Part shown: positions 25,036 to 29,549 of the stretch, piece after piece
Layout of the letters: every line of letters begins with the position of its first letter
Numbering within the stretch: the first letter of the stretch is position 1
Assembly (NCBI RefSeq): GCF_010450875.1
Contig: NZ_CP048422.1
Coordinates: 1,829,001 to 1,893,000, forward strand
Source of the DNA: Sphingomonas insulae
Lineage (GTDB): Bacteria > Pseudomonadota > Alphaproteobacteria > Sphingomonadales > Sphingomonadaceae
Length of the DNA: 64,000 nt
Direction of reading: 5' to 3'
Notes under the pieces: generated by a model
The model's input: only the letters and a program-made list of their open reading frames with translations
The model's database searches: none
Told to the model about the DNA's origin: nothing
Translations under genes and position numbers: made by a program

Positions 25036-25141
25036 CATCGTCTCCTCGATCCCGATCGCCCGGCCGTGGCCGAAATCGGCGCTGCGGACCGGGTGCCGAA
25101 TAGCGCGCCGAACGTTGTATGGGCGATAGGAGAATGCCGCC

Positions 25142-26878
25142 ATGTCCCGCACCGTCCTGATCACCGGCGCCAGCATCGCCGGCAATACTGCGGCCTGGTG
25201 GCTCGGCCGCGCCGGCTTTGCCGTCACCGTCGTCGAACGCGCGCCCGCATTTCGCGACGGCGGCCAGAATATCGACGTGCGGGGATCGGGCCGCGAGGTG
25301 CTGCGCCGCATGGGCCTGGAGCGGGAGGCGCTGGATCGCGGCACGGGCGAAGAGGGAACCGCCTGGGTGAACGAAGACGGCTCGATCGCGGCGCAATTCC
25401 TCGCAGACGATTCGGGGCAGGATGGCCCCACCGCCGAAATGGAGATGCTGCGCGGCGACCTCGCCCGGTTGCTCTACGAGCCCGCCGCCGAACACGCGAC
25501 CTATCGCTTCGGCGACAGCGTGACGGCGATCGAACAGGACGACGCGGCGGCCTGGGTGACCTTCGCCAGCGGCGTGAAGGAACGATACGACGCCGTCATC
25601 GTGGCAGAGGGTGTCGGATCGGCGACACGCGACCTGGTGTTTCCGAAGGAAAACACGCCGCGCTGGATGAACCTGACCATCGCCTATTTCACCATTGCCC
25701 GTACACCGGGGGACGACCGGCTGTGGCGCTGGTACAATGCCAGCCACGGTCGCAGCATATCGCTGCGGCCCGATCGCCATGGCACGACGCGGGCGATGCT
25801 GTCGATCCAGCAGCCGCCGGGGGGCGAACAGGACTGGAGCGTCGCTCGCCAGAAGGCATGGCTGCGCGACCGTTTCGCCGGTGCCGGCTGGCAATCCGAA
25901 CGGGTGATCGCCGGCATGGAGGATACCGACGATTTCTATTTCGACGTCTTGCGGCAGGTGCGGATGCCGCGCTGGTCGGACGGCCGGGTGGCGTTGACCG
26001 GCGATGCGGCATGGTGCGCGACGCCGATCGCCGGGATCGGCACGACGCTGGCGATAACCGGCGCCTATGTGCTGGCCGCGGAGATAGAGCGGCACGAGGA
26101 TGTCGCCGCCGCATACGCAGCCTATGAACAGGTCATGCGGCCGATGGTGGAGGATGCGCAGGGCGTGCCCAAGATCGCGCCGCGGCTGATGAACCCGCAC
26201 AGCCGGATCGGCATCGCCCTGCTGCATCGCGCCCTCGCCGCGGCGAGCGTGCCGGCGGTGCGCGGCGTGATGGGCAAAGTGTTCGGTGGCGGATCGAAAC
26301 AGCCCGACCTCAATCGCTATCGGTCGACATCGGCCCTGGCGCCTGCGGAGACGCCGCCCGCGGTCGCGCCGCCGTCGGCCGGACTGTCGCCGCTGCTCGC
26401 GCTTGGCGCGGTGGGCGTCGTATTGGAGGCGAGCGCGCTGATCGGACGGCGCAACGCCCCCGACCCGTCGCATCCGGGCATCCGGCGGTGGTATCGCCGG
26501 CTCGACAAGCCGGGCTTCACCCCGCCCGATGCCGCCTTCGGTGCGGTTTGGCCGGTGTTGGAAACCGGGCTGGCGGTCGGCGGCTATCGATTGTTGCGCC
26601 AGCCCGCCGGTGCCCGGCGCAACGCCGCGGTCGGACTGTGGCTGCTAAACACCGCGATGGTCGGCGGCTGGACGCAATTGTTCTTCCGCGAAAGGCGATT
26701 GGGGGCGAGCGCGGCGGCATCGGGGGCGATGATTGCGTCCGGGTCCGCTTATGTCGCGACCGCCGCGAAGGTTGATAAGCTGGCCGCCGCCGTCGCGGTG
26801 CCGTTCGTCGCGTGGCTGGGCTTTGCGACATTGCTCGCCGAACGGATCTGGCGGGACAATCCGGACGCCGGCGCGTGA
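25142..26878 (+). CDS. FAD-dependent monooxygenase fused to a TspO/MBR domain
   Basis: This 578-residue protein has two recognisable parts. Residues 1-385 form a PHBH/TetX-type FAD monooxygenase: LITGASIAGNTAAWWLGRAG (dinucleotide site), VVERA, a DG-like middle region (DAVIVAEGVGSATRD) and VALTGDAAWCATPIAGIGTTLA (FAD ribityl site near 287). After a Pro/Ala linker, residues about 415-575 form a five-helix TspO domain. Its WYRRLDKPGFTPPDAAFGAVWPVLE, LLNTAMVGGWTQLFF and VPFVAWLGFATLLAERIWRDN match the conserved W..L.KP...PP..FG.VW, LN..W..LFF and AW..FA..L...IW..N elements. TspO binds tetrapyrroles in membranes, so this would be a membrane-anchored flavoenzyme. Its stop overlaps the GTG of a DCC protein gene. 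Confidence 0.85.
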   Translation: MSRTVLITGASIAGNTAAWWLGRAGFAVTVVERAPAFRDGGQNIDVRGSGREVLRRMGLEREALDRGTGEEGTAWVNEDGSIAAQFLADDSGQDGPTAEMEMLRGDLARLLYEPAAEHATYRFGDSVTAIEQDDAAAWVTFASGVKERYDAVIVAEGVGSATRDLVFPKENTPRWMNLTIAYFTIARTPGDDRLWRWYNASHGRSISLRPDRHGTTRAMLSIQQPPGGEQDWSVARQKAWLRDRFAGAGWQSERVIAGMEDTDDFYFDVLRQVRMPRWSDGRVALTGDAAWCATPIAGIGTTLAITGAYVLAAEIERHEDVAAAYAAYEQVMRPMVEDAQGVPKIAPRLMNPHSRIGIALLHRALAAASVPAVRGVMGKVFGGGSKQPDLNRYRSTSALAPAETPPAVAPPSAGLSPLLALGAVGVVLEASALIGRRNAPDPSHPGIRRWYRRLDKPGFTPPDAAFGAVWPVLETGLAVGGYRLLRQPAGARRNAAVGLWLLNTAMVGGWTQLFFRERRLGASAAASGAMIASGSAYVATAAKVDKLAAAVAVPFVAWLGFATLLAERIWRDNPDAGA

Positions 26879-27225
26879 GCCGCGTCACCGTCTGGCATGA
26901 CGGCGACTGTCCGCTGTGCCGGCGGGAAGTCGCGCTGATGCGGCGGCTCGACCGGCGTGGGCGGATCACCTTCGTCGATGCGACGACCGCTAACACCTGC
27001 CCGGTCGACCGCGCCGATCTGCTCGCGCGCTTCCACGCGATGGAGGACGGGCGCTTGCTGTCGGGCGCTGCCGCGTTCGCCGCGATGTGGCGGGCAATCC
27101 CGCTGTTGCGGCCGGTCGGACTGCTGGCCCGCCACCCGCGCGTGCTCGCGCTGCTCGAGCGAGGCTATCTGAGGTTCCTGGCCGTCCGCCCGCGCCTGCA
27201 ACGCTGGTGCGGCACGCGGTCGTAG
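26875..27225 (+). CDS. DCC-family (DUF393) thiol-disulfide oxidoreductase
   Basis: This 116-residue protein opens with VTVWHDGDCPLCRREVALMRRLD. The DxxCPxC motif at residues 8-13 defines the DCC family of thioredoxin-like proteins, whose biochemical role is largely untested. The rest (ITFVDATTAN, then LLSGAAAFAAMWRAIP) follows the family layout of strand, helix and substrate-like loop. Its GTG start overlaps the TGA of the FAD-TspO gene (GTGA), so the two are translationally coupled. That implies joint work, perhaps redox handling of the flavoenzyme or its product. Confidence 0.85.
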   Translation: MSRVTVWHDGDCPLCRREVALMRRLDRRGRITFVDATTANTCPVDRADLLARFHAMEDGRLLSGAAAFAAMWRAIPLLRPVGLLARHPRVLALLERGYLRFLAVRPRLQRWCGTRS

Positions 27226-27251: not shown

Positions 27252-28517
27252 ATGCCGCACGTCGGGCCGGCGAGCGATCTGGACATCACGCGGTCCGCCC
27301 CGCACAGGGCGGGGGTGCACGCTATCCCACCTGGCCAGGACCGTCTGCCCGTCGTCCGTGTGCTGCTGTACGGGCTGGCGTCGGCGGGCGGCGTCATCGG
27401 CTATCTGCCGTTGCTCACGCTGCTGTTGCCGATGAAGCTCGCCAGCTTTCCCGAAGACATGCGCTACGGCGTGCTCGCCGTGTGCGGCGTGGTGGGCGCG
27501 ATCGTGGCGGGCGGGGCGAACATCGCCTTTGGCTGGCTCGGCGACCGGTCGGTCGCGCGCGGCGGGGGACGGCGCCATTGGATGGTGTCGGGGACGATCG
27601 CGACGGTGCTGGCGTTCGCGGCGATCGTTGTCGCGCGCGCGCCCGCCGCCATCGTCGCGGCCATCGTGCTGTTCCAGATCGCGATCAACGCGGTGCTGGC
27701 ACAGGTCGCGTCGCTGATCGCCGAGGAGGTACCCGCCGCGCAAAAGGGGACCGCCGCGGCGCTGTCGACGCTGGGCAATCCGTTCGCGGCCGGTGCATCC
27801 GCCATCGTCGTCGCCGCCGCGGCGACGCAAGGGTGGCGGTTGGCGATCGTCGCCGTGCTGATGACCGGCTGCCTCCTGCCACTGATGCTCGCCGGAACGC
27901 AGCGCATCGTATCGAGCGATCCAGCCGCGCCCGCACGCACCGCGATGCGCCGCGATCTCATCGTCGCTTGGGCGGCGCGCTTGCTCATGCAGATCGCGAA
28001 CTGCGGGGTCGGGCTGTACCTGTTCTTCTATTTCGAACGCTTCGGCCGCGTCGGCGACGACATGGCGATACCCGTCGCCCGCCTGCTGTTCGTCGCGACG
28101 ATCGTTCCCGTGCCGCTCGCCCTCGCGCTGGGGCGCTGGTCCGACCGCATCGCCCGCCGCCGGCCGTTCCTGGCCGCCACGGCGGTGCTGGCGACATTGG
28201 GGCTGGCGGGGATGGCCGTCGCCGCGTCGTGGACCATCGCCGCCGTCGCCTATGTCGCCTTCGCCAGCGGAGTGGCCGCGTTCATCGCGTTGAACACCGG
28301 CCATGCCATGCTGCTGCTGTCCGACGGCACCCGGCGCGGTCGCGATCTCGGGCTGCTGAACCTCGCCAATACCTTGCCGCAGGTGGTCGCGCCATTGCTG
28401 GCCTGGGGGTCCGGCCCGGCGCACGGGTTCGGGACGGCGTTGTCGATCATGGCGGCGATGACGCTGCTGGCGGGTATCCTGCCGCTGGTCGCTGGCGGCG
28501 ATACCGGCCGGGGGTGA
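27252..28517 (+). CDS. MFS transporter
   Basis: About 421 residues with 12 hydrophobic helices, beginning near ATG 27252 (MPHVGPASD), though a later start before VVRVLLYGLASAGG is possible. Motif A-like loops GWLGDRSVARGGGRRHW (between helices 2 and 3) and GRWSDRIARRRPF (between 8 and 9) are clear. The sequence recalls the GPH/SLC45-like sugar transporter branch. It begins 26 bases after the DCC gene and may belong to that operon. It ends 6 bases from the convergent LacI gene, so a link to the beta-glucoside locus is equally possible. Substrate unknown. Confidence 0.75.
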   Translation: MPHVGPASDLDITRSAPHRAGVHAIPPGQDRLPVVRVLLYGLASAGGVIGYLPLLTLLLPMKLASFPEDMRYGVLAVCGVVGAIVAGGANIAFGWLGDRSVARGGGRRHWMVSGTIATVLAFAAIVVARAPAAIVAAIVLFQIAINAVLAQVASLIAEEVPAAQKGTAAALSTLGNPFAAGASAIVVAAAATQGWRLAIVAVLMTGCLLPLMLAGTQRIVSSDPAAPARTAMRRDLIVAWAARLLMQIANCGVGLYLFFYFERFGRVGDDMAIPVARLLFVATIVPVPLALALGRWSDRIARRRPFLAATAVLATLGLAGMAVAASWTIAAVAYVAFASGVAAFIALNTGHAMLLLSDGTRRGRDLGLLNLANTLPQVVAPLLAWGSGPAHGFGTALSIMAAMTLLAGILPLVAGGDTGRG

Positions 28518-28523
28518 TCCGGG

Positions 28524-29549
28524 TCAGGCGAGCGAGCGCGGCATGCAGGTCGATCGGATGACGAGTTCGTAGGGCAATTCGCGACACGTCTCGCTCTTGC
28601 CGTCCGCACCGGCATTGCGCCGTTCGATGAGCAGGTCGATCGCCGCCGCGCCCATCTCGAAATTGGGCTGGCGGATGGTGGTGAGCTGGGGCCACGCCAT
28701 GCGGGCGATCGCGACATCGTCGAAGCCGACGATCGAGACGGAACGCGGCACCGCGATCTGGTTGCGCATCGCGGCGACCAGCACGCCCAGCGCCATCTCG
28801 TCGTTGCTGGCGAAGACGGCGGTCGGATGCGGGCTGGTGCCGAACAGCGCGTCGGCCGCCTCCAGCCCCGAGCGGAAGCGGAAGTCGCCCTGGAACACGC
28901 GCCGCGGATCGGGCGTGATGCCGGCGGCGGTCATGGCGTCCTGAAACCCCAGCCAGCGCCGCTCGGACGCGCTGTGCTTGGGATTGCCCAATACGAAGGC
29001 GATGTCGCGATGGCCGAGCGACAGCAGATGCTCCGTCATCGTCCGCGCCGCGGCGCGATCGTCCATCCGCACCTGCGGCGTCCGATCGAAATCCGAACCC
29101 GGCGCGATCCTGACCACCGGCACGTCGTGTTCCTCGAACACCGCGATCAGGTCGGCGCGATCGCAGATCGGCGAGGTGAGGATCGCGCCGTCCAGCCGCA
29201 GGCCCTGCAACGTATCCTCCAGCAGCCGCCGCCAGTCGGACCGATCGAAGCTGATCGGTTCGATGACGAGATGGCGGCCGAGCGCGCGGGCGCGTTCCAG
29301 CGCCCCGCGCTGGATGCTCGCGGCATAGCCCGATGCGGGATCGTCGAAGAACAGGCCGATCAGGAACGACCGCGAACTGGACAGGCCACGGGCGAAGGCG
29401 TTGGGCCGGTAGTTCATGTCCGCCACGACGCGCGCCACCATGTCGCGAACTTCGGGGCGGACGTGCGCCTCGCCGTTGATGACGCGCGACACCGTCTTGG
29501 GGGACACCCCAGCACGACGCGCGACGTCCGTGATCGTGATCGCCTTCAA
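28524..29549 (-). CDS. LacI-family transcriptional repressor
   Basis: This 341-residue protein begins with the LacI helix-turn-helix and hinge (ITITDVARRAGVSPKTVSRVIN, YRPNAFARGL) and continues into a ribose-binding-protein-like effector domain. That domain has GHRDIAFVLGNP, TAVFASNDEMALGVL and VSIVGFDDVAIARM elements characteristic of the family. It follows the frameshifted GH3 gene on the same strand with 82 bases between. The two 17-bp sites at 32083-32099 and 34550-34566 have the central CG palindrome expected of LacI operators, so it is the best candidate regulator of the beta-glucoside genes. Ligand unknown. Confidence 0.92.
   Translation of the reverse strand: MKAITITDVARRAGVSPKTVSRVINGEAHVRPEVRDMVARVVADMNYRPNAFARGLSSSRSFLIGLFFDDPASGYAASIQRGALERARALGRHLVIEPISFDRSDWRRLLEDTLQGLRLDGAILTSPICDRADLIAVFEEHDVPVVRIAPGSDFDRTPQVRMDDRAAARTMTEHLLSLGHRDIAFVLGNPKHSASERRWLGFQDAMTAAGITPDPRRVFQGDFRFRSGLEAADALFGTSPHPTAVFASNDEMALGVLVAAMRNQIAVPRSVSIVGFDDVAIARMAWPQLTTIRQPNFEMGAAAIDLLIERRNAGADGKSETCRELPYELVIRSTCMPRSLA

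Follow-up and report, generated by a model that had tools for sequence, protein, structure and literature searches.

TspO is a membrane protein known for porphyrin binding, and its biochemical role is still argued over. We know of no settled function for DCC or DUF427 proteins. In Rhodobacter capsulatus, singlet oxygen is described, in the accessible part of one study, as inducing tspO together with crtIB, with photolyase genes responding too (PMC7074977). Bacillus cereus lacking TSPO has raised porphyrins and a disturbed redox balance in the absence of oxygen, according to the portion available to us of PMC13185565. For Pseudomonas, STRING networks presented in the accessible part of PMC4237140 link TSPO with GrxC, PhrB and a thiol oxidoreductase. 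Our searches of open-licence PMC texts turned up no description of a monooxygenase-TspO architecture, nor was a grx-tspO-dcc-DUF427(-photolyase) cluster named in the papers seen. We analyzed here a fusion of this architecture, encoded within a 64,000-nt stretch of Sphingomonas DNA (the window).

The fused FAD monooxygenase-TspO gene spans positions 25142..26878 of the + strand in one frame (578 aa, stop included), and a likely ribosome-binding site, AGGAG, precedes it at 25128..25132 (+). Residues 1–385 (25142..26296, +) correspond to a class A flavoprotein monooxygenase domain, which passes the PF01494 profile (74.3 bits, cut-off 22). The sequences GASIAG (residues 9–14), EG (156–157) and GD (287–288) stand at the place of the GxGxxG-like, DG-like and GD elements, which we take to be the class A flavoprotein monooxygenase motifs; the DG-like motif has E for D in all 51 FAD rows counted. 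A fast-evolving and partly disordered linker (residues 386–412; 26297..26377, +) leads to the TspO domain (residues 411–578; 26372..26875, +), which passes Pfam PF03073 at residues 444–571 with 98.1 bits (gathering score 24). For fold searches, residues 1–394 were used first and the TspO part was folded and searched separately; the latter consists of five transmembrane helices (residues 417–438, 463–486, 491–516, 520–544, and 546–572) in the TSPO fold. An earlier reading, made from the sequence only, had proposed a single-frame fusion of two apparently intact domains with TspO at about residues 415–575; the monooxygenase and the complete five-helix TspO found within these 578 aa agree with it.

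In the predicted structure (pTM 0.72), pLDDT is below 50 at residues 398–408, within the linker, and the relative placement of the FAD and TspO domains is uncertain. When the window gene was compared with 10 chosen fused relatives, dN/dS was 0.14–0.29 for the FAD domain and 0.07–0.21 for the TspO domain; for the linker it was 0.42–0.98 in nine of the ten pairs, the remaining pair not being computable. Both domains are under purifying selection, and the linker is nearly free of it.

Of 201 genomes in the genus, 21, counting the own genome, have a full-length fusion, the 20 other fusions being 70–80% identical to the window protein. Stand-alone TspO genes of the same clade occur in 55 of the 201 (E up to 3e-28; counted from the match table), and no genome has both forms (P 0.0008 if genomes are independent). 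Family-wide, the full fusion was found in 2 of 298 genomes, again including the own one (E up to 1e-40; some of the 298 are in the same genus). Among the best 120 protein clusters listed, 108 have both domains. A search for long clusters of the TspO clade, whose reach is limited to relatives that have words in common with it and which leaves other TspO fusions possible elsewhere, gave 116 clusters: 113 with both Pfam domains, two with PF03073 only and one with the FAD domain only. Recurrence in 21 of 201 genomes and in many separate assemblies rules out an assembly artefact, and homologues do carry both domains in one gene. The in-frame fusion is real and conserved. On the trees, the loci L004 and L050 group inside the Sphingomonas rows; their records, whose titles name Microvirga sp. 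SRT01 and Arthrobacter sp. TPD3018, are probably misnamed.

The fusion stop is overlapped, by the GTGA already pointed out in the sequence-only reading, by the GTG start of a gene for a DCC1-like thiol protein (26875..27225, +; PF04134, 81.1 bits, cut-off 27.8), in which the DxxCxxC motif is present as DGDCPLC. The coupling proposed from this overlap is frequent, not obligatory: DCC lies downstream of 11 of the 20 other fusions, and its presence at 12 of 21, counting the window, refutes it as an obligatory partner. At one further fusion (G100), a 30-residue DCC remnant is retained.

Gene order was counted at 90 loci (20 fused, 12 FAD without TspO and 58 stand-alone TspO), leaving out a contig-edge TspO match (G179) and most weak FAD matches among those listed. 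Neighbour identities were checked by Pfam with one example each: Glutaredoxin gave 34.2 bits (cut-off 22.9), MarR 29.1 (24.6), DUF427 115.7 (22.1) and DNA_photolyase 36.3 (26.6). At the 58 stand-alone TspO loci, glutaredoxin is upstream in 18 and DCC downstream in 31, and DUF427 (PF04248) and photolyase are present in 24 and 3. The corresponding numbers at the 20 fusion loci are 0, 11, 12, and 3, and the window locus has, out of these four, DCC only. The cluster photolyase is closest to 8oet, 5o86, 2xry and kin, presumably class II photolyases. In other genera of the family, the order grx-tspO-dcc-DUF427 was present at 5 of the 12 TspO loci read, so that this order is most likely ancestral, with TspO-DCC as the older unit and the FAD enzyme as a newcomer. 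In the fusion lineage the enzyme occupies the former grx place.

The own genome gave no match for a class II photolyase; its one photolyase family match lies away from the fusion locus, as do its DUF427 and grx homologues. It encodes an 87-aa glutaredoxin (L211:3228-3491; G000:C4 near 124230) which is 78% identical to that of the tspO clusters, in a stretch that, as read, is free of tspO or dcc of the fusion-cluster kind. The DCC gene of the window is followed on the same strand by an MFS transporter gene (27312-28517), which a LacI-type regulator gene (28524-29549) faces; the MFS gene is absent beside the other fusions in the loci read.

Stand-alone relatives of the FAD enzyme were found, among the loci listed, in Methylobacterium, Rhizobium, Agrobacterium, Aureimonas, Massilia, Xanthomonas, some Sphingomonas and others. 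Several of these, such as Methylobacterium, Rhizobium, and Aureimonas, are genera often living on plants. In the genus, a MarR-like gene lies directly upstream and on the same strand at five of eight stand-alone FAD loci, and no TspO or DCC of the window kind was found beside stand-alone FAD genes in the stretches read. Within the 100 bases that precede the enzyme, a palindrome ATCA-N4-TGAT is present at all 17 MarR-FAD loci (L018-L020, L022, L026, L028, L030, L032, L037, L039-L041, L135, L137, L138, L140, and L141), where it lies between the MarR-like gene and the monooxygenase, at none of 29 fusion-type loci and at none of 15 other stand-alone loci. It is probably a MarR operator, as for a substrate-induced enzyme, and its distribution suggests that control was rewired at the fusion. 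An EcfG promoter was also considered for the stand-alone FAD genes and rejected: the GGAAC-N15-18-GTT matches found in 9 of 32, at the end of MarR or between it and the FAD gene, are parts of the palindrome and were read as a MarR-type operator. One of the stand-alone genes, from Antarcticirhabdus (L026:8001-9149), has an interrupted reading frame.

Upstream of the cluster, the picture is a different one. Before grx, or before tspO where this is the first gene, 40 of the 47 distinct sequences contain GGAAC-N16-CGCT, against 0.21 expected from the same loci; when five loci from other genera are included the count is 45 of 52, the spacing always being 16 with 14–18 allowed; the upstream sequences are related, and these counts, like those that follow, are not of independent events. 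EcfG promoters are given as GGAAC-N16-CGTT, with 14 different −10 boxes, for Sphingopyxis (accessible part of PMC7083833) and as GGAAC-N17-20-GTT for S. melonis (accessible part of PMC6599016); a study of EcfG in S. melonis Fr1 mentions neither TspO nor glutaredoxin in its main text. The fusion-type upstream set (29 distinct sequences, including FAD loci that lost TspO) shares a conserved CGTT at a nearly fixed distance and a GCGAC-like box. The form G[GC][AG]AC-N16-CGTT is present in 10 of the 29 (0.08 expected) and a looser form in 19 (0.42 expected). The former is absent in the window, where a promoter-like element GGTGC-N16-CGTTG (25092..25117, +) has CGTT (25113) at the conserved place and a weak −35-like box. 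Crude sigma-70, RpoE and RpoH patterns gave nothing clearly above chance before fused and TspO clusters. The cluster promoters may be termed EcfG-like, and the fusion-type promoters match EcfG loosely; we infer EcfG control of the cluster and MarR control of the stand-alone pairs. The light or oxidative-stress setting suggested by the sequence-only reading is plausible to this extent, with EcfG-like promoters and with photolyase and glutaredoxin genes in the wider cluster.

To place the fusion among its relatives, trees were built for both domains. Out of 76 loci for the FAD tree, 59 were kept (one too short, one with a stop, L026, and 15 identical dropped), and out of 134 for the TspO tree, 91 (six too short, one with a stop, L180, and 36 identical dropped). 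On the FAD tree, 24 fused and five unfused rows form a group of 29 (support 85/33), with an inner group of 27 rows (97/91). Four state changes are needed, the simplest account being one gain of the fusion and three losses (L130/L131/L133, L132, and L136). On the TspO tree, the 24 fused rows lie with 11 unfused ones in a group of 35 (88/88), with six state changes, two of them forced by well-supported branches. Support is weak at the decisive forks of the FAD tree and weaker still for the TspO tree, and the latter alone would not prove a single origin. On both trees, the fusion appears among stand-alone relatives. One genome (G016) has a TspO-less FAD gene (L134), which on the FAD tree branches beside the fused rows, and a separate tspO-dcc-DUF427-photolyase cluster (L146), a possible glimpse of the pre-fusion state.

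The fusion has been undone in both directions, by loss of the enzyme or of most of TspO. Two loci (L156, L158) match fused loci over two stretches, one reaching from some 250 bases upstream of the enzyme start to about codon 13, the other beginning near codon 366 and running into TspO, which indicates that the enzyme was deleted and TspO kept; TspO is followed there by DCC and DUF427. At four other loci (L130-L133) the enzyme was kept and its tail ends in one hydrophobic helix, scored as the best 17-residue mean hydrophobicity of the C-terminal tail (2.17–2.48), with a DCC gene, intact or cut, or a photolyase gene downstream. A hydrophobic end stretch is present in all 12 TspO-less clusters among the best 120 listed (1.51–2.89), some of which are the same proteins as those of the four loci. 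In three of these clusters (P0108-P0110) the tail corresponds to the first TspO helix plus the GRR.APDPSHP loop, which implies that TspO was cut after helix 1. The TspO-less L136 is the exception, with no clear helix (best 1.08). Out of six stand-alone enzymes checked, four score at most 0.34, and the tails of the remaining two are not long enough for a helix. The enzyme of the fusion lineage nearly always keeps a membrane helix, and the idea of a membrane-anchored enzyme, already present in the sequence-only reading, gains from this. Loci un-fused in either way indicate that the parts can live apart; three of the four genomes behind L130-L133 (G099, G037, and G115) have a TspO of the clade elsewhere, which may act in trans.

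Two further rearrangements were observed. In P0113, an FAD protein, the tail is the first TspO helix followed, as judged by eye, by the apparent end of a DUF427 protein, as if the tspO-dcc-DUF427 segment between had been deleted. In S. gellani, the fusion gene (L038:8001-9128) has lost its middle through a large deletion, so that FAD residue 290 is followed directly by the TspO part, from near residue 96 of the latter; this species also has a MarR-FAD pair elsewhere (L030).

The residues of both domains were then counted. W450, Y451, W470, and W558 are retained in all 24 fused and at least 61 of the 62 stand-alone TspO rows counted, five distant rows (L079, L200-L203) being left out; W500 and W510 are conserved as well. 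In a HMMER alignment with BcTSPO (4ryi), W470, W558, and Y451 are opposite chain W79, W166, and Y60, which, subtracting an offset of 28, we take to be W51, W138, and Y32 of BcTSPO. Guo et al., in 2015, are said to have found these three residues important for porphyrin breakdown. In the FAD domain, a position counted as fusion-specific if the majority residues of the two groups differed, at 90% in the fused and 80% in the stand-alone rows. No consistently differing position, and hence no active-site signature of the fusion, was found between 24 fused and 27 stand-alone rows (eight rows, L130-L134, L136, L206, and L207, left out), so that enzymes with and without TspO probably share their substrate. 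Nothing in this result points to the tetrapyrrole or light-made oxidant that had been proposed as substrate, nor do the stand-alone enzymes, which, in the stretches read, have no TspO of the fusion type beside them; a tetrapyrrole would still be a conceivable substrate.

Our preferred reading, to which we assign a probability of about 0.5, is that of a detoxifying monooxygenase, anchored to the membrane, next to a TspO with its own role preserved, fused after replacement of grx. It builds on what can be read in the loci themselves, namely the fusion, its conservation, its position among stand-alone relatives on both trees, the absence of grx at fused loci, the un-fusing both ways and the changed upstream elements. 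A stand-alone class A flavoprotein monooxygenase would have entered the grx-tspO-dcc-DUF427(-photolyase) cluster in Sphingomonas, replaced grx and then been joined in frame to tspO. The enzyme would act in the cytosol, held at the inner membrane, where with FAD, NAD(P)H and O2 it would hydroxylate a small, lipophilic compound, either aromatic or resembling a quinone, of the same substrate class as for its stand-alone relatives and for the purpose of detoxification; the fusion would have shifted it from repressor-type (MarR) to stress-type control. TspO would keep its own role (porphyrin handling) in addition to being the anchor, and DCC and glutaredoxin would be thiol redox partners of the same cluster. 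That 21 genomes keep the domains joined speaks against this reading, as a mere anchoring role would not have to account for it. Direct hand-over of a substrate between the domains is possible, and the evidence does not require it.

Such a hand-over is central to the alternative that both domains form one working unit, in which TspO captures a porphyrin, bilin or flat lipophilic ligand and passes it to the monooxygenase for a two-step removal of photosensitisers. The joint constraint seen in dN/dS, the four retained aromatic residues, three of them aligned with BcTSPO 4ryi, the porphyrin breakdown by BcTSPO described in the accessible part of PMC4926414, and the photolyase and EcfG-like promoters of the wider cluster argue for it. 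It is, however, unlikely when one considers that no enzyme position separates fused from stand-alone rows by the criterion used, that several loci lost most of TspO while the enzyme stayed, and that the linker is variable and the domain placement uncertain (pTM 0.72). Variability and partial disorder of the linker also speak against the rigid coupling that would suit TspO as a ligand sensor switching the monooxygenase on and off, and the enzyme persists without a whole TspO; TspO has been called sensory and modulates photosynthesis gene expression in Rhodobacter (accessible part of PMC7074977), and even so we find a sensor very improbable. That the fusion was undone several times and in both directions, and that DCC, DUF427 and photolyase come and go, would fit a chance joining, kept only as both genes are needed and of no benefit as one protein. 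The fused form is nevertheless found in 20 other genomes at 70–80% identity, and forms losing TspO nearly always retain a membrane helix, which leaves chance joining quite improbable as well.

A bolder extension would make this the first enzyme-fused TSPO to work as a photoprotective machine, in which TspO binds a membrane tetrapyrrole or photoproduct and the flavoprotein oxidises it, with glutaredoxin, DCC and the monooxygenase as interchangeable redox partners in a general-stress operon of leaf-dwelling bacteria; we regard this as rather doubtful. A natural TspO-enzyme fusion and a place shared by glutaredoxin and monooxygenase name concrete partners of TspO. The question of its role becomes testable in harmless Sphingomonas strains, including strains in which the parts are separated again, and the DCC and DUF427 proteins gain a defined cluster for study.

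When compared with known systems, the fused TspO differs from canonical bacterial TspO by the GRRNAPD motif and the N-terminal enzyme, and does not reach the canonical alphaproteobacterial profile NF047825 (79 bits, cut-off 180). The own genome encodes a separate canonical TspO outside the window (G000:C4:1813042-1813467, L001; 149 bits), flanked by an FtsJ/S4 methyltransferase-like gene and by one for YbjN. Identity with RsTSPO and BcTSPO is 20–24%. The type 1 tetracycline destructases Tet(50), Tet(51), Tet(55), and Tet(56) differ by lacking the TspO domain and the stress-type cluster setting, and identity as a tetracycline destructase was rejected, the enzyme scoring 207.9 bits against the curated tet_destruct (NF033476) cut-off of 550. 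Kynurenine 3-monooxygenase is a membrane-anchored class A monooxygenase and, unlike in the window protein, its anchor is not TspO. The stand-alone MarR-FAD pairs of Rhizobium, Aureimonas, Massilia, Xanthomonas, and some Sphingomonas have the same enzyme as the fused domain, without TspO, without a membrane helix in those checked, and with the operator-like palindrome instead. The TSPO partners in the Pseudomonas STRING network, in the part of PMC4237140 available to us, are the same functional company as the cluster (glutaredoxin, photolyase, thiol oxidoreductase), whereas that network is a predicted one from another genus, and the words "fused" and "fusion" do not occur in the available text. 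The grx-tspO-dcc-DUF427(-photolyase) cluster of Sphingomonadaceae has the same tspO clade and downstream genes, and the fusion locus differs from it by an in-frame monooxygenase in place of glutaredoxin and by a different promoter.
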